Source of the DNA: Rhodospirillales bacterium
GTDB taxonomy: Bacteria; Pseudomonadota; Alphaproteobacteria; Rhodospirillales; Defluviicoccaceae
Reading direction: 5' to 3'
DNA: 64,000 nt
Assembly: GCA_007695045.1 (NCBI GenBank)
Contig: REEP01000044.1
Location: forward strand, 1 to 64,000
Under the pieces are notes generated by a model, which was not told where the DNA came from, did no database searches, and saw only the letters and a program-made list of their open reading frames with translations. Every line of letters starts with the position of its first letter. Position 1 is the first letter of the stretch. The position numbers and the translations under genes were made by a program. This document shows positions 10,465 to 62,412 of this stretch, in pieces.

Positions 10465-12591
10465 TCAGCCCGGCTCGCGACGGACCAGCAGCACGAACGA
10501 GCGTGGCTCGACGGGATAGGCGCTGTCGTCGTCGTAATCGCCGTTGGCTGCGAACCCGTCGTCGTTGCTGGTGTCAAACACCAGCGACCAGCCATTGCCC
10601 ACCTCGATCGCCGGGAGGGTCCAGTCGAGGCCTTTGTGGTGGGCGTTGAGGATGATCAGGAAGGTCTGGTCCGGCTGCGGCTCGCCCTGCGCCGTCAGAA
10701 AGTATTCGCCGGCTTCGCCCCGCAGCAGACAGCCGAGGAACGAGCCTTCGGCGGCATCCCAGTCCTCGTCCTGCATCTCGCTGCCGTCGGGCTTCAGCCA
10801 CATGATGTCCTGGATTTCGGTGCCGGGGATGAAGCGGCGGTGGAAGAAGCGGTCGCGGTGGAACACGATGTGCTCGTAACAGAGGCGGATCAGGTCCCGG
10901 GTGAACTGGAGGAAGCCGGCGTCGCGTTCGACCTGGTCCCAGTCGATCCAACTGATCTCGTTGTCCTGGCAGTAGGGGTTGTTGTTACCCCCCTGGGTCT
11001 GCCCGAACTCGTCGCCAGCCAGGATCATCGGCAAGCCCTGGGACAGCAGCAGCATCGCCAGCATGTTGCGGCGCTGGCGGTCGCGCAGCTTGAGCACCTC
11101 AGGGTCATCGGTCGGCCCCTCGACGCCGCAGTTCCAGCTTTCGTTGCTGTCGGTGCCGTCGCGGTTGTCCTCGCCGTTGGCCTCGTTGTGCTTGTCGTTG
11201 TAGGCGACCAAGTCGGCCAGCGTGAAGCCGTCGTGGGCGGTAATGAAGTTCACGGAGGCCCACGGCCGGCGGCCGTGGGTATCGAACAGGTCGCTGGAGC
11301 CGGTGATGCGGGTGGCGAGGTCGCCCATTAAGCCGCCGTCGCCCTTCCAGAACCGGCGCACGGTATCGCGGTAGCGGTCGTTCCATTCGGCCCAGCCGGC
11401 CGGGAAGCCGCCGAGGCGGTAGCCGCCGTCGCCGACGTCCCACGGCTCCGCGATCAGCTTGACGCGGGACAACACCGGGTCCTGCCGGCATGCGTCAAGA
11501 AAGCCGCTGTGGTCGTCGAAGTGGCCGTCCGCCTCCCGGGCCAGGGTCGTCGCCAGGTCGAAACGGAACCCGTCCACGTGCATTTCCTCGACCCAGTAGC
11601 GCAACGAATCCATCGCCAGTTGCAGGACACGTGGATGGCGCAGGTCGAAGGCGTTGCCACAGCCGGTGAAATCCATGTAATAACGGCGATTATCGGGTAC
11701 GAGGTGGTAGTATGAGGCGTTATCTATCCCCCGAAAAGACAGGGTAGGCCCCATCTGATTCCCTTCGGCGGTGTGATTATAGACTACATCAAGAAGAACT
11801 TCGATCCCCGCTTGGTGCATAGCTTGTACAAACTTTTTAAAGTCATCGAGCCTGCCATTCGTAATATAGGCGGGATACGGTGCGAAAAATCCGAGGGTAT
11901 TGTAGCCCCAGTAATTGGCAAGACCCTTGTCCACCAGATGACGGTCTTGCAGGAAGGCGTGCACCGGCAAGAGTTCCACTGCGGTGATGCCGAGGTTTTT
12001 GAGATAGTCGACCACCGCCGGCACGGCGAGGCCGGCGAACGTGCCGCGCAGTTTCTCTGGCACCTCCGGGTGGCGCATGGTGAAACCGCGGACATGCATC
12101 TCGTAGATGATGCTTTCGTGCCATTCGGTGCGCGGCGGCGCGTCGCCGGCCCAGTCGAAGGTGCCCGGGTCGATCACTCGACATTTGGGCATCCAGCGGG
12201 CGTTGTTGCGGCGGTCGAAGCCGAGATCGGCCTGCTTCCCGCCGACCCGGTAGCCGAAATGGGCATCGTGCCAAGTCAGGTTGCCGGCGATGGACTTGGC
12301 ATAAGGGTCGAGCAGCAGTTTGTTGTGATTGAACCGATGGCCGCGGGCAGGATCGTATGGCCCATAGACCCGGTAGCCGTAAAGTTGACCAGGCTTGGCA
12401 TCGGGCAGGAAGGCGTGCCAGACCTCATCCGTGTACTCCGGCAGGCGAATACGATGGATCTCCCGCCGGCCGTTGCGGTCGAACAGGCACAGTTCGACCT
12501 TTTCCGCGTTCTGAGAAAAGAGTGCGAAGTTAACGCCTTCGCCGGTCCAGGTGGCGCCCAACGGATAGGGTCTTCCTGGCCATACGCGCAT
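10465..12591 (-). CDS. glgX: Glycogen debranching enzyme GlgX (GH13 isoamylase type)
   Basis: Hydrolyses alpha-1,6 branches of glycogen-like glucan. The 708-residue product has an N-terminal CBM48-like domain (about 1-130), then the GH13 barrel. The catalytic set is visible: nucleophile D345 in DGFRFDLA, acid E382 in IAEPWDVG, and D454 in TAHDGF, followed by the family stretch NEANGEDNRDGTDSNESWN. The ATG at 12591 is preferred over an adjacent upstream GTG because GGAGAG lies six bases before it. It is the last gene of the six-gene leftward glucan cluster. Part of it (about 11690-11880) is unusually A+T-rich for this DNA. Confidence 0.95.
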   Translation of the reverse strand: MRVWPGRPYPLGATWTGEGVNFALFSQNAEKVELCLFDRNGRREIHRIRLPEYTDEVWHAFLPDAKPGQLYGYRVYGPYDPARGHRFNHNKLLLDPYAKSIAGNLTWHDAHFGYRVGGKQADLGFDRRNNARWMPKCRVIDPGTFDWAGDAPPRTEWHESIIYEMHVRGFTMRHPEVPEKLRGTFAGLAVPAVVDYLKNLGITAVELLPVHAFLQDRHLVDKGLANYWGYNTLGFFAPYPAYITNGRLDDFKKFVQAMHQAGIEVLLDVVYNHTAEGNQMGPTLSFRGIDNASYYHLVPDNRRYYMDFTGCGNAFDLRHPRVLQLAMDSLRYWVEEMHVDGFRFDLATTLAREADGHFDDHSGFLDACRQDPVLSRVKLIAEPWDVGDGGYRLGGFPAGWAEWNDRYRDTVRRFWKGDGGLMGDLATRITGSSDLFDTHGRRPWASVNFITAHDGFTLADLVAYNDKHNEANGEDNRDGTDSNESWNCGVEGPTDDPEVLKLRDRQRRNMLAMLLLSQGLPMILAGDEFGQTQGGNNNPYCQDNEISWIDWDQVERDAGFLQFTRDLIRLCYEHIVFHRDRFFHRRFIPGTEIQDIMWLKPDGSEMQDEDWDAAEGSFLGCLLRGEAGEYFLTAQGEPQPDQTFLIILNAHHKGLDWTLPAIEVGNGWSLVFDTSNDDGFAANGDYDDDSAYPVEPRSFVLLVRREPG

Positions 12592-12740
12592 CACGAACTC
12601 TCCAATGAATACCTAATGAATAGACGTGGATGATGGGCTGCGAACAGGGCGACACGGGAAGGCGCGGCGGCGTCGCTCCGAGGCCATCGGGGAGTCGGTG
12701 CACCAGAAACGCTCAGCCTGTCAATGAATCCTTCGGATCC

Positions 12741-14942
12741 CTACTCGGGCAGAAGTACCACGGCCGCCAACGGCGGCAATACCAAATCGATGGAGTTTTC
12801 CCGACCGTGGCAGGCAATCGGCTTGCTCATCACCGCGCCGGCATTGCCCACGTCGCTGCCGCCATAGAGAGCGGAATCGGTATTCAGCCGTTCGATGTAA
12901 CGCCCGGCCCGGGGTACGCCGATGCGATAACTGTCACGCACCACCGGGGTAAAGTTGCACACCACAACGGCGAAATCCGTGGGATCCTTGCCCTTGCGCA
13001 GGTAGGAGATCACGCTGGCTTCCACATCCGTGCAGTCGATCCATTCGAAGCCTTCGGGTTCGCAGTCATGTTCGTGAAGGGACCGTTCGCCGCGATACAA
13101 GGTGTTGAGATCTCGAACCAGGCGCTGAATGCCCTGATGGCTGGGATCGTCCAGCAGGTGCCAGTCCAGGCTTGAATTGTGATCCCATTCCCGCTCCTGG
13201 GCAAACTCGCAGCCCATGAACAGGAGTTTCTTGCCGGGATGGGTGTACATGTAGGCATAGTACACGCGCAAGTTGGTGAAGCGCTGCCAGCGATCGCCCG
13301 GCATCTTGCGGATCAACGAACCCTTTCCGTGCACCACCTCGTCATGGGACAGCGGCAGAACGAAGTTCTCGCTGAAGGCATAAAGAATAGCGAATGTCAG
13401 CCGATCATGCACGTATTTGCGGAAGACAGGATCGCGGCTCATGTAGGCCAGCGTATCGTTCATCCAACCCATGTTCCACTTGTACCCGAACCCGAGCCCA
13501 CCGAGATAGGTCGGGCGGGATACCATCGGCCATGATGTGGATTCTTCAGCGATCGTTGCCGTGTCCGGCTGGTGCTCGTACAGGACCTCGTTCATCCGCC
13601 GGAGGAATGCGATGGCCTCCAGGTTTTCGTTGCCGCCGTAGGCGTTGGGGACCCACTCGCCCGCAGGCCGGCTGTAGTCCAGGTACAGCATCGAGGCGAC
13701 CGCATCCACGCGGAGCGCATCCACGTGGTACTCCTCCAACCAGAACAGCGCGTTGTTTAGGAGGTAATCGGCCACTTCATAGCGTCCGTAGTTGTAGATC
13801 AGGGTACCCCAGTCCTTGTGCCGGCCCTGGCGGGGATCGGCATGCTCGTACAGATTGGTCCCATCGAAGTTGCCAAGCCCATGGGCATCCGTCGGGAAAT
13901 GCCCTGGCACCCAGTCGGCAATGACCCCAATGCCGGCGAGATGGCAGCGGTCGACGAATTCGCGGAACTCATCCGGACGGCCGAAGCGGCTGGTGGGCGC
14001 GAACAGACCGATCGGCTGATAGCCCCAGGACCCGTCGAACGGATGCTCGCTGATCGGCAGCAGCTCGATATGGGTGAACCCCATTTCTTTTACGTAAGGG
14101 ACCAAGGTGTCGGCCAGTTCCCGATAAGTGAGATACCTGTTGCCAGCATCCACATCACGGCGCCAGGAGCCGAGATGCACCTCGTAGATCGACACCGGCG
14201 CGTCGCGGTCGATGGCCGCCCCCCGCTGCTTCATCCATTTGTTGTCATGCCAGCGGAAGCGGCCGAGATCTGTGACGATGCCGGCCGTGCCCGGCGCCTG
14301 TTCGCAGAAGAAGGCAAAAGGGTCGAGTTTGAGCGGCAGAAGATCGCCTTTCTTGCTCATGATCGAATATTTGTAGAGGGTCCCTTCCTGAACACCGGGT
14401 ACGAACAACTCCCACACCCCGCATTCGACGCGGAAACGCATGGGGTGACGGCGCTCATCCCAGTTATTGAAGTCGCCGACGACACTGACCCGCCCGGCCC
14501 CGGGCGCCCACACCGCAAAACCGGCTCCGGCAACGCCGTCCATGGTCATGGCATGCGCCCCCAGCTTCTCGTCCAGTCGAAGGTGCTTGCCCTCGGCGAT
14601 CAGGTACACATCCAGTTCGCCCAGGAACGGCGGGAACCGATACGGGTCTTCCAGCTCTTGCTCGCCCGCCGCGGTTTCGATGCGAAAGCGGTAAGGAAAG
14701 CGCTGCGGCGACCGGCTTACCGGCCCGCCGAAGAGGCCGGCATCATGAAGTTTGGGCAGTTCGGCGATCACTTTGCCGTTACGCAGATCGATCACGTGAA
14801 CCCGCTGGGCGAGCGGCAGGTACGCGCGGATCACCAAGCCCTGACCCTTTTCCGCCAGGTGCGGCCCCAGAAATGAGAACGGATCCGGGTGACGCGCGGA
14901 AACGATCCTGTCGATGTTTTGGGCTAGCTGCGCGATGGCCAT
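12741..14942 (-). CDS. glgB: 1,4-alpha-glucan branching enzyme
   Basis: Transfers alpha-1,4 chain ends to alpha-1,6 positions, making branches in the glucan built by GlgE. The 733-residue product starts [14 protein letters not shown]; this ATG (14942) has AGGAAAG just upstream and matches the usual GlgB start, so the open stretch to 15050 is left out. The N-terminal CBM48 region is followed by the GH13 barrel with nucleophile D413 (RVDAVAS), acid E466 (TIAEES) and D534 (LSHDEVVHG). It lies between treS-mak and glgX in the cluster, with a 227-bp gap upstream that contains a strong GC hairpin. Confidence 0.97.
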
Positions 14943-50580: not shown

Positions 50581-51428
50581 CAGGCGCGCATCTCAGCCAG
50601 CACGAAGGCGCGAAGCGCCGGGGTGACCGCCGGGTCGACGCCGAACCATGCGGCGAAACCAGGGCGAGCCTGATGCAGCAGCATGCCGAGACCATCCACC
50701 GTGACATGGCCGCGGCCTTGCGCCGCCTTGAGCAGCGGCGTCTCCAGCGGCCGGTAGACAATATCCACGACCACGGCAGACGAATTCAGCGCCTCCAGGG
50801 GCATGTCCAGCGGTGGCTGTCCGGTCATGCCGAGACTTGTCGCATTGACCAGAACGGCCACATCCCCGGCCGCACCGGCGCGGGTGGCCCAATCCACCGT
50901 CTGGATCGCACCGCCGATATCGGCGGCCAGCCGGTCGGCCCGGGCGCGGTCACGGTTGGCCACACGGACCAGCGGCATGCCGCCGGTCAACAGGGCATGC
51001 GCCACGGCGCGCGCGGCCCCGCCGGCGCCCAGCACCAAGGCCGGGCCTGCCGTGGCGTGCCAGTGCGGTGCACCCTGCCGCAACGCTTCCATGAAGCCGT
51101 AAGCATCGGTGTTGGTCCCGTATAACCGCCCGTCGTCCTGGACCACCACCGTATTGACGGCACCGATGGCGCGCGCAGTGTCCGACACGGCGTCCAGGCC
51201 GGGGATCACGACTTCCTTGTAGGGGATCGTCACGTTGGCGCCACGAAAGCCCAGCGTCACCAGGGCGGCGAGAGCCGATGCGACGCGGTCCGGGCGAACC
51301 GGCAGTGGAACGTAAACACCGTCCACATCGTATTGTGCCAGCCAATAGCCGTGGATGCGCGGTGACAGGCTGTGACCGATCGGCCAGCCCATGACCCCGG
51401 CAACCCGGCCGCTGCCCGTCGGTATCAT
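50580..51428 (-). CDS. aroE: Shikimate dehydrogenase
   Basis: NADP-dependent reduction of 3-dehydroshikimate to shikimate in aromatic amino acid synthesis. The 282-residue product has GVMGWPIGHSLSPRIHGYWL at the N-terminus, the catalytic Lys in VTIPYKEVV near residue 76, NTDAYGFMEAL near 100, and the NADP-binding VLGAGGAARAVAHAL near 137. The ATG at 51428 overlaps the maf stop as ATGA; further upstream open frame shows no family similarity. The next gene is coaE. Confidence 0.96.
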   Translation of the reverse strand: MIPTGSGRVAGVMGWPIGHSLSPRIHGYWLAQYDVDGVYVPLPVRPDRVASALAALVTLGFRGANVTIPYKEVVIPGLDAVSDTARAIGAVNTVVVQDDGRLYGTNTDAYGFMEALRQGAPHWHATAGPALVLGAGGAARAVAHALLTGGMPLVRVANRDRARADRLAADIGGAIQTVDWATRAGAAGDVAVLVNATSLGMTGQPPLDMPLEALNSSAVVVDIVYRPLETPLLKAAQGRGHVTVDGLGMLLHQARPGFAAWFGVDPAVTPALRAFVLAEMRA

Positions 51429-52024
51429 GCCTCGGCCAGACCAAGGCGGCGGAGTTGGGCCAGCAGAGGCAGCAACGGCAAACCCAGGATCGTAAAATGG
51501 TCGCCATCGATGCGGGCCATCAACTGCAGGCCCCGTGCCTCCACGGCATAGGCGCCGACGGTATCGGTCACCGCCGATCCTTCGGCGTCGAGGTAACGCT
51601 GCAGAACGCTGTCCGAAAACGCGCGCATGGTAAGACGTGCGACCTCCGCGTAGTGCCACACCACAGCAGCCTCCCGGACAAGCGCCACGGCGCTGACAAG
51701 GCGATGCGACCGTCCGCGCAACAGCGCCAAGGTGCCGGCCGCCGTATCCCGGTCCACCGGCTTGTCCAGGAGCCGATCACCGCACACCAACACTTGATCC
51801 GCACCGATCACCATGGCACCGGGATGCCGTGCTGACACAACCATCGCCTTGGCTTCCGCGAGGGCAATGGCAACACTGGCCGGACCCATGCCAGAGGCGA
51901 GCAGACGCGTCTTGATCGCGCCCTCGTCGATCGCCGCCGGGTCGGCACAAAAGGCCACGCCAGCTTGCTGGAGCATGCGCTGGCGCGCGCTGCTGGCGGA
52001 AGCCAGGATCAACGGCGTCGACAT
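51425..52024 (-). CDS. Maf-family nucleoside triphosphate pyrophosphatase
   Basis: House-cleaning enzyme that hydrolyses non-canonical nucleoside triphosphates (dTTP, UTP or modified forms) to the monophosphates. The 199-residue product has SASSARQRMLQQAGV near residues 9-23 and GADQVLVCGD near 74-83, the family marks. Which Maf class (YhdE or YceF) applies cannot be read surely. It stands directly on the left of the 447-bp candidate origin gap, the first gene leftward from it. Confidence 0.94.
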   Translation of the reverse strand: MSTPLILASASSARQRMLQQAGVAFCADPAAIDEGAIKTRLLASGMGPASVAIALAEAKAMVVSARHPGAMVIGADQVLVCGDRLLDKPVDRDTAAGTLALLRGRSHRLVSAVALVREAAVVWHYAEVARLTMRAFSDSVLQRYLDAEGSAVTDTVGAYAVEARGLQLMARIDGDHFTILGLPLLPLLAQLRRLGLAEA

Positions 52025-52471
52025 TCCGTGCTCACCCTGCCGTGTCGGTCGACCCGATCATGCGCCCCGGCGATCCAAGGCCCGATGCGGGTCGTAACAT
52101 ATTTTTGGCCACGCCGCGTTGTGGACCGATTGTGGGCAACTGGTGCCGCTTTCAAATCTCATTTTATTCGCCTCCCAATGCTGCAAGCCGTCCACAGGGT
52201 CGTGCGTCTGTGGGGCTCGCTCGGGAAACCTGGGCAAAGCGGGGACCATAGCTCGCTCGCGCAAAGTTTTCCCCGGTTTTGGCGTTCCCGGCATAGACTG
52301 TCGAGCCCCTTCTGCCATGGATTTGGTGACGTTGCTCCCGTATCGTCCCCAGCGCGCTGTTTCGGCTTGGTGCGGCTCCGAAATGCCGAGGACGACATTC
52401 GGATAACCGTTAATCCCCACGATTCAGCCGACCAACTACTGTTACCACCTAAAAGAGAGTCTTAAGGGTTG
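52025..52471. other. Candidate chromosomal replication origin (maf/hemE gap)
   Basis: A 447-bp gap with no gene, between leftward maf-aroE-coaE-dnaQ and rightward hemE-hemH-hemJ-rho. In Caulobacter and Rickettsia oriC lies beside hemE, with the maf-aroE-coaE-dnaQ-secB order on the other side, so the position matches. Inside are several TGTGG/CCACA cores (52120-52128, 52131-52139, 52188-52196, 52209-52217), none better than two mismatches to a DnaA box, and A+T-rich patches such as 52098-52106 and 52151-52169. No perfect DnaA box and no spaced CtrA pair is seen; TTAA occurs at 52410 and 52462. The gene between them elsewhere (ppsR/DUF299) is absent here. It is a position-based proposal. Confidence 0.5.
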
Positions 52472-53581
52472 ATGGGTAGAGATGTGGATCGCTTGCCCGA
52501 GGGCAACGCATCGTCGATACAACCGAGCCAACCGAGCATGAGCGGCGTGCGGGACGCGTTCGCCGGAGTGTCTCAGCCACGGCCACCGTTCTGGCTGATG
52601 CGCCAGGCGGGACGGTACCTGCCCGAATACCGGGCGCTTCGCGCGGAGGCGCCGGACTTCCTGACTTTTTGCTACACACCATCGCTGACCACGGAGGCCG
52701 CATTGCAGCCAATCCGGCGGTTCGGAATGGATGCAGCGATCGTGTTCAGCGATATCCTGGTGGTGCCGCATGCGTTGGGCATGGAAGTACGATTCCTGGA
52801 GGGCGTGGGACCGCGCCTCACGCCTGTCGGTACGCCTCACGACGTGATAGGCCTGGAGAGTGCCCGCCTGGAAGAGCGGCTGGAGCCGGTCTACACTGGA
52901 ATCGCAGGTTTGCGCCGGGCGCTGGCCTCGGAGCGATCGCTGATCGGGTTTGCGGGAGCACCTTGGACCCTGGCCTGCTACATGGTCGAGGGTCAGGGGG
53001 GAAGCGAAGCGCGGACCGCGCGTCGGTGGGCTTATGCGGACCCGGAGGGGTTCGGTGGCCTCATGGCTTTGCTGGAGGATGCGGTTGTCCGGCACCTGGG
53101 TGCCCAAATCAAGGCCGGCGCGGACGTGGTCCAACTGTTCGACAGCTGGGCCGGGCTGTTGTCCGAACAGCAGCTGCGACGATGGGTGATCGAACCGACC
53201 GCACGGATCGTGCGCCGTCTCAAAGAGGCTTGGCCGGAAGTGCCCATCATCGGTTTTCCCCGGGGCGGCGGCCTCCTTTACCACGCTTACGCGATCGAGA
53301 CCGGCGTGGACGGCGTGAGCCTGGATGCGGGTGTACCGGCACGGTGGGCCGCTGAAACCCTGCAAGCGGTGGTACTGGTGCAGGGGTGCTTGGATAATCA
53401 ACTGCTTGTGGTGGGCGGCACCGCGATGGATCGGGAGATCGATCGGCTGCTGTCGACCTTGGGGCAGGGACGCTACGTGTTCAACCTGGGTCACGGGGTC
53501 CTGCCGGAAACTCCGCCGGAGCATGTGGCCCGGCTGGCGGAGCGGGTTCGCACCTGGTCGGGCTCGGCAGGAGTCGGCTGA
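52472..53581 (+). CDS. hemE: Uroporphyrinogen decarboxylase
   Basis: Removes four carboxyls from uroporphyrinogen III to give coproporphyrinogen III in haem synthesis. The 369-residue product has the family RQAGRYLPEYRA near residues 43-54, FSDILVVPHALGM near 90, and FAGAPWTLACYMVEG near 158. The start is uncertain: ATG 52472 has AAGGG very close, ATG 52538 would give the usual 347 residues but has a poor ribosome site. The stop overlaps hemH as TGATG, so hemE-hemH are coupled. It is the first gene rightward of the candidate origin. Confidence 0.95.
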   Translation: MGRDVDRLPEGNASSIQPSQPSMSGVRDAFAGVSQPRPPFWLMRQAGRYLPEYRALRAEAPDFLTFCYTPSLTTEAALQPIRRFGMDAAIVFSDILVVPHALGMEVRFLEGVGPRLTPVGTPHDVIGLESARLEERLEPVYTGIAGLRRALASERSLIGFAGAPWTLACYMVEGQGGSEARTARRWAYADPEGFGGLMALLEDAVVRHLGAQIKAGADVVQLFDSWAGLLSEQQLRRWVIEPTARIVRRLKEAWPEVPIIGFPRGGGLLYHAYAIETGVDGVSLDAGVPARWAAETLQAVVLVQGCLDNQLLVVGGTAMDREIDRLLSTLGQGRYVFNLGHGVLPETPPEHVARLAERVRTWSGSAGVG

Positions 53582-58139: not shown

Positions 58140-60170
<2,031 letters not shown>

Positions 60171-60995: not shown

Positions 60996-61034
60996 TGCGG
61001 GCTTCACCCGCGATGGTCCTTGCTGGGGGTGTCG

Positions 61035-62396
61035 GTGACCGGCCTCGGCGACGGGCTTCAGACGGTTTTTCCTGATACGATCTTTGCCCTGGCCTCGGGC
61101 CAGGGGCGGGCCAGTGTCGCTGTAATTCGGGTATCGGGTGTCGGCGCCGGACTGTGTCTGGAGCGTCTGACCGGGCGGACCTCGCTGGTTCCGCGACGCG
61201 CGACACGGGTGGCGGTGCGGGCGGCGGACGGGGAGCTGCTGGACCGGGGGTTGGCGATCTGGTTCCCGGGTCCGGGCAGCTTCACCGGAGAGGACGTGCT
61301 GGAACTCCAACTGCACGGCGGGCGCGCGATCCTGCAGGAGGTCATGAACGCGTTGTCGGCAGTGACCGGCGTACGGACGGCGGAGGCGGGGGAATTCTCC
61401 CGCCGGGCGTTCGAGAACGGCAAGTTCGATCTGACCGCGGCGGAAGGTCTTGCCGACCTGATTGCGGCGGAGACTCCGGAACAGCGCCGCCAGGCCCTGC
61501 GGCAGGCGGATGGGCGCTTGGCCAAGCTGTGCGAGGGGTGGCGGGACAGCCTGATCAGCGGGATGGCCGACCTGGAGGCGGCGATTGACTTCAGTGAGGA
61601 GGAAATCCCGAGCGGGCTTCTGACGCGAGCGCAGGAGGCGGCGGGCCAGCTTGCGGGTGAGATCTCAAGGCATCTGGGGGAGGCGCAGCGGGGAGAGCGG
61701 GTGCGGGAGGGGATCCGGGTGGCGATCCTGGGCGCGCCTAACGCCGGGAAATCGTCTCTTCTCAACGGGCTTGCGGGGCGGGATGCGGCGATTGTGGCGG
61801 CGGCGCCGGGGACGACGCGAGATGTGGTCGAGGTGCGGGTGGAAATGGCCGGGTGTCCGGTGATTCTGCGCGATACAGCCGGAATTCGCGAAACCGTGGA
61901 GGCGGTGGAGCGGGAGGGAGTGCGGCGGAGCGAGGAGGCGGCACGGGAGGCGGACATTCGGCTGCTGGTGTTCGATGGAGCGCGATGGCCCGTGGTGGAT
62001 GCGCGGACGGCGGGATTGTGGGATGCGAATGCCCTGGGGGTGCTGAGCAAAGTTGACCGGGTAGCAGGAAGCGGCCCCTGGAGGTTGGGAGAGCGGACCC
62101 TGGTGGCGGCGTCCGTGGTGACGGATCAGGGCCTGGAAGCGCTGAGGCAGATGCTGGAGGTGGCGGTGCGGGAGCGCTACGCCGGCGGGGCGGATGTGGC
62201 GTTGACCCGCGCGCGGCATCGCGAGGCGCTGCAGGCCTGTCGCGAGGGTTTGCTGCGGGCAGGGGCGGGCCAGGCCGAGGAACTGGTGGTGGAAGATCTA
62301 CGGCTGGCGGCGCGGGCGCTGGGGCGGCTCACCGGGGCGGTGGATGTTGAAGACGTGCTCGACGCCGTGTTTCGGGAGTTCTGCATTGGGAAGTGA
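61035..62396 (+). CDS. mnmE: tRNA uridine-5-carboxymethylaminomethyl synthesis GTPase MnmE
   Basis: With MnmG it makes the cmnm5 modification on the wobble uridine of several tRNAs. The 453-residue product has the N-terminal tetrahydrofolate-binding domain ([22 protein letters not shown]), the G domain with G1 [10 protein letters not shown] near residue 235 and DTAGIRET near 281, and the C-terminal motif FCIGK whose Cys is catalytic. The GTG at 61035 has GGGGG five bases upstream; TTG 61020 and GTG 61029 are alternatives. Its stop lies directly beside the parS site. Confidence 0.96.
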
Positions 62397-62412
62397 TGTT
62401 TCACGTGAAACA
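62397..62412. other. Perfect parS site (ParB binding palindrome)
   Basis: TGTTTCACGTGAAACA, a complete 16-bp palindrome identical to the ParB parS consensus TGTTNCACGTGAAACA. It lies at the mnmE/mnmG junction, directly after the mnmE stop. In bacteria such sites seed ParB spreading and chromosome segregation and cluster near the origin. It lies about 10 kb from the candidate oriC, and parAB commonly follow mnmG-rsmG, just beyond this window. Confidence 0.93.

Follow-up and report, generated by a model that had tools for sequence, protein, structure and literature searches.

A probable hemE-type chromosomal origin with an eroded unwinding module and a rearranged flank in a Rhodospirillales bacterium

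Chromosomal origins of the hemE type are known from Caulobacter (Cori) and Rickettsia (PMC1914354, PMC4468827), where the flank opposite hemE is usually, but not universally, occupied by ppsR (COG1806), COG1253 being found there in Wolbachia and others (PMC1914354). CtrA and IHF sites have been reported for the Caulobacter and Rickettsia origins, although CtrA sites are not general (PMC1914354, PMC4468827), and Cori uses weak DnaA boxes (PMC4468827). A basal unwinding system (BUS), described in B. subtilis and also tested in other bacteria, H. pylori among them, comprises a DnaA box, a spacer whose length peaks at 10-13 and DnaA-trios of consensus 3'-GAT-5' (PMC8287927). The published search rule asks for a DnaA box with at most two mismatches, a spacer of at most 16 bp and at least three NAN trios, and the same paper suspected the existence of deviant trios without the central A (PMC8287927).

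The window analysed here comprises bases 1-64000 of contig G000:C118 (118,044 bp) from a draft genome of 3.35 Mb in 138 contigs; in the nearest named relative found, Rhodospirillales bacterium PLM2.Bin51 (L054), hemE is 74% identical. Like Cori and the Rickettsia origin (PMC1914354, PMC4468827), the gap between maf and hemE (Table 1) is an intergenic region next to hemE and roughly 400 bp long (444 bp with TTG 52469 as the start of this gene, 447 bp with ATG 52472), with an A+T content above average (41.2% against 35.3% in the window), a skew minimum, par genes nearby and DnaA sites that are weak, as in Cori. To its left, on the minus strand, lie dnaQ, coaE, aroE and maf; to its right, on the plus strand, hemE, hemH, rho and, farther on, mnmE, after which gidB-parA-parB follow past the window end, so that the par cluster and two parS sites fall within 12 kb. 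An earlier note on this DNA had drawn attention to the neighbouring genes, to transcription diverging from the gap and to a parS 10 kb away, and all three hold: maf is read leftwards and hemE rightwards, and the copy of TGTTTCACGTGAAACA at 62397 is perfect, where 0.43 would be expected by chance even allowing three mismatches. Candidate starts of hemE within 52469-52540 also include a later ATG near 52538; since relatives mostly align only from about residue 29, the N-terminal stretch of the predicted gene may be partly non-coding.

Table 1. Features of the candidate origin and its surroundings (window positions unless stated).
Feature	Position	Strand	Remark
maf, left flank	51425-52024	-	
Candidate oriC, intergenic maf/hemE	52025-52468	.	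58.8% G+C against 64.7% in the window
DnaA box TTGCCCACA, degenerate, 2 mismatches	52131-52139	-	weak alone
Inverted DnaA box TTATCCGAA, degenerate, 2 mismatches	52398-52406	-	site where relatives have CTGTGGATAA
Full match to module model R1	52400-52450	+	best in genome, E=1.3e-5
Box A TAATCCCCA, 2 mismatches to TTATCCACA	52411-52419	+	TAATCCCC near-invariant in order
Triplet run CAA CTA CTG TTA CCA	52433-52447	+	lower strand 3'-GTT GAT GAC AAT GGT-5', candidate DnaA-trios
GAGTC, GANTC (CcrM-type) site	52457-52461	.	stretch with GANTC in 20/38 modules
hemE, right flank	52469-53581	+	alternative start ATG 52472
mnmE, first gene of mnmE-gidA-gidB-parA-parB cluster	61020-62396	+	
parS 1, perfect TGTTTCACGTGAAACA	62397-62412	.	
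parS 2	64335 (contig position)		outside window

Three differences set this locus apart from Cori and the Rickettsia origin: maf rather than ppsR occupies the other flank, neither a full CtrA site nor an IHF consensus site was found in the gap, and the DnaA boxes are weaker still. With the Wolbachia, Ehrlichia and Anaplasma origins (hemE and COG1253; PMC1914354) it shares the retention of hemE and replacement of the other flank, but here the replacing neighbour is maf, following the removal of ppsR. That the DnaA boxes are only degenerate, as previously remarked, is borne out by a search of the gap, in which none lies within one mismatch of TTATNCACA, while TTATCCACA is matched three times with up to two mismatches, a weak enrichment, this number being reached by 4.5% of 444-bp windows. 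By the two-mismatch count, this origin (three boxes) and that of the sister genome (one) are among the poorest compared, most having 4-10, and this erosion is the only feature that sets the window's genus apart; domain IV of the genome's DnaA carries the canonical GRDHTTV motif. We consider it very probable that the gap is the single chromosomal oriC, of the hemE type, of a Rhodospirillales-like alphaproteobacterium, at which DnaA bound to weak boxes would open the DNA at adjacent triplets. The earlier proposal of a candidate origin is upheld by the skew around the gap itself, by that of two complete relatives and by a module conserved across order and class, with its best copy in the genome here; the locus is ordinary in kind, a hemE-type alphaproteobacterial oriC whose BUS is eroded and whose flank is rearranged.

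Comparison of some 50 hemE-upstream gaps of the order (about 10, mis-anchored by the regular expression used, were excluded from the alignment) identified a module that is conserved in most of them. Its order-wide layout consists of an inverted box CTGTGGATAA, 4-5 nt, TAATCCCC(A/G), about 9 nt, a short spacer, triplet-phased CTACAACAACTACTACC, and a T-rich and A+T-rich stretch. TAATCCCC is near-invariant within the order, and the 9 or so nucleotides after TAATCCCC(A/G) form a perfect TTATCCACA in several genomes; in several relatives, e.g. L035 and L044, this second box directly follows CCCC. The hemE-proximal part can be summarised as the TAATCCCC box, a spacer of 13-16 nt, CTA/CAA triplets and an AT-rich end with GANTC, this last motif being present in 20 of 38 modules within the 45 bp that begin at the triplets, whereas shuffling yields 4.3 +/- 1.9 (a comparison uncorrected for relatedness among modules). 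Within the triplet zone, autocorrelation at lag 3 is 0.55, whereas lags not divisible by three give approximately 0.21-0.29. Counted over the 32 loci of alignment A1, the upper strand has 74 CTA and 63 CAA triplets, whose lower-strand counterparts in the 3' to 5' direction are GAT and GTT, so that about half of the order's hemE-origin triplets are 3'-GTT-5' rather than 3'-GAT-5'.

On the arrangement of its parts, this putative unwinding module fits a BUS. It shares with the systems of B. subtilis and H. pylori (PMC6669920, PMC8287927) a box, a spacer (here of 13-16 nt) and adjacent triplets in the same phase and on the same strand as in the published rule, and the relatives resemble these systems further in the T-rich or A+T-rich stretch after the triplets. 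It differs from them in that the box is TAATCCCC, that about half of the triplets across the order are 3'-GTT-5' instead of 3'-GAT-5', and that a second box is recognisable in some relatives only and not in the window. No paper that we found in the open-access library searched names TAATCCCC, or DnaA-trios, at hemE origins.

Judged by its sequence, the hemE-proximal 60 bp of the gap hold a degenerate, much-eroded copy of the order-wide module, in which TAATCCCCA is followed by 13 nt, the triplet run of Table 1, a few bases and AAAAGAGAGTCTTAAGG. The second, trio-proximal tandem box, which is the commonest arrangement but is not required for a BUS, is unrecognisable in this copy. The gap nevertheless contains what the published search rule describes, namely a box with two mismatches, a spacer of 16 and three NAN trios (GAT-GAC-AAT), a combination with a chance rate of approximately 0.07 per 444 bp. 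A sequence-only model (R1), built from 32 modules with the window's genus excluded, finds its best match in the 3.35 Mb genome in this copy, the runner-up having E=0.29. Across the class, 153 of 289 genomes match R1 at E<=0.01, and of the 70 strong matches (E<=5.1e-5) in genomes whose hemE was listed, 68 are upstream of that gene and on the same strand, two of these 68 at a distance of about 1.2 kb.

Whilst these results associate the module with hemE, they also bear on the alternative that the origin does lie here but that the module is a leader or promoter element of hemE, melting taking place at another site of the gap through some other arrangement. Such a reading, which we regard as improbable, would suit both the near-constant position of the module, almost always 19-190 bp upstream of the hemE match and on the same strand, and the erosion of the present copy. 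However, the module stands about 1.2 kb from hemE in G222 and G301, and in G068 and G263 its best match is on a contig other than that of hemE, indicating that it is not tied to this gene; moreover, box, spacer and triplet phase agree with the BUS rule, and the skew minimum falls inside the module.

The absence of the usual ppsR gene from the flank, correctly observed in the earlier note, had led there, together with the degenerate boxes, to the suggestion that this origin might not be of the known type. This flank, together with a set of recognisable boxes that is among the smallest of the origins compared, is what speaks for an origin of a different type, which we nonetheless judge very unlikely. 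In this genome maf adjoins the gap and ppsR is on another contig (G000:C113:8374-9141); in most other families of the order ppsR flanks the origin, whereas in the window's family the neighbour of the gap is maf. In each of the 11 genomes of this family ppsR lies elsewhere, and these copies form one clade with 100/100 support, the mislabelled row L196_ORI of the tree being the genome's own relocated gene. One of the family, G008, also retains, in truncated form, a ppsR that separates maf from the gap (G008:C9:14674-15027), a relict that could be placed in neither ppsR clade. Family members lacking ppsR at the flank still have the module, and the core module here does not differ from that of relatives with the gene still at the flank. 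On this evidence the 'missing' ppsR is a family-wide relocation, i.e. a rearrangement of the flank and not a different type of origin, so that the suggestion is not sustained; the relocated gene may have been either moved or replaced from outside.

The hemE-type reading also agrees with the distribution of GC skew. The cumulative minimum falls at 52449, whether the window or the full contig of 118,044 bp is taken, and CUSUM analysis places the shift at 52500 (p=0.002, permutation of 500-bp bins); the change of skew that had been suspected between left and right is therefore real, and every one of the hand-counted G and C numbers behind that suspicion proved exact on recount. Minus-strand genes just right of the gap (qor, ogt and a DsbH-like gene) have plus-strand third-position skews of +0.29 to +0.38, whereas those to its left average approximately zero, so that gene direction does not explain the step. 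The DsbH-like gene (58140-60170) encodes an N-terminal DsbH-like thioredoxin domain (PF03190) and falls within the tract from the origin to parS 2 described below.

The skew of a complete chromosome, proposed earlier as a check, was sampled in two complete relatives, the host genome being treated at contig scale. In G010 (same family, 4.35 Mb) fine mapping places the minimum at 3781884, within hemE (3781096-3782085, minus strand) and in its 5' part, and sampled 20-kb blocks are mostly positive to one side of the gene and negative to the other. The minimum of G055 (same order, 3.89 Mb) is at 432996, 23 bp from the start of the hemE match at 432973. Neither minimum is more than about 200 bp from the start of hemE, and in both chromosomes the sampled skew changes sign at hemE and once more far around the chromosome. 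We also judge it very unlikely that the gap is merely a divergent promoter region with the origin elsewhere, e.g. near dnaA: dnaA is indeed on a contig other than C118, the boxes in the gap are degenerate and divergent transcription alone yields some local skew change, but against this stand the third-position skews, the minima at hemE in the complete relatives and the module, whose best copy in the genome is the one here, no other being significant.

From the module to parS 2 the skew is exceptional in size, being +0.166 over 11.85 kb (52449-64303) where the largest absolute value elsewhere in the genome is 0.059 (152 windows of up to 11.85 kb, 485 kb sampled). The change point that ends this tract lies 11850 bp past the hemE start, with parS 2 at 11866; the corresponding values are 11800 and 11822 in the sister genome G001, and 13500 (with a wider interval, 11750-14676) and 13576 in G010, where the tract is weaker. 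The right edge at parS 2 is sharp in the window's own genus and in G010, and in other genomes of the order the tract is weaker, broad, ends earlier or is absent. Its skew is independent of gene direction, and AT skew in it is near zero, which does not accord with simple cytosine deamination; because parS 2 coincides with the gidA/gidB boundary, these two are indistinguishable as the cause of the right edge. A speculative and rather unlikely possibility is that in this genus the stretch from the module to parS 2 (52449 to about 64335) is replicated or repaired with a strand asymmetry not shared by the remaining chromosome, for example through delayed lagging-strand synthesis or through repeated abortive rightward initiation ending at the ParB-parS complex, which would leave behind the skewed tract and its sharp right edge.

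In the mechanism that we propose for the hemE-type origin, DnaA would be recruited at the weak boxes, of which TAATCCCCA (52411-52419) is the proximal one, and would then be passed to the single-stranded triplets of the lower strand (3'-GTT-GAT-GAC-AAT-GGT-5', 52433-52447), where binding is predicted to melt the DNA at the triplets and toward the hemE start; helicase would be loaded and forks would depart in both directions. Regulation of the gap by GANTC methylation may be added to this scheme: the genome encodes a GcrA homologue and a RAMA-domain protein (among the control genomes the RAMA domain was found only in Caulobacter), and methylation-timed control of the origin is therefore possible in the host lineage.

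These results narrow the probable origin of an uncultured lineage down to about 60 bp, and indicate that hemE-type alphaproteobacterial origins have a common, recognisable unwinding module, of which the copy in the window is among the most eroded. About half of the order's triplets, having T for A in the middle, are of the deviant kind of trio that was suspected in PMC8287927, and model R1 can serve as a practical origin finder for draft alphaproteobacterial genomes. The parts that merit specialist attention are the class-wide module with its GTT trios and the oriC-to-parS skew tract; should the tract reflect replication, it would tie the behaviour of forks to the partition complex.
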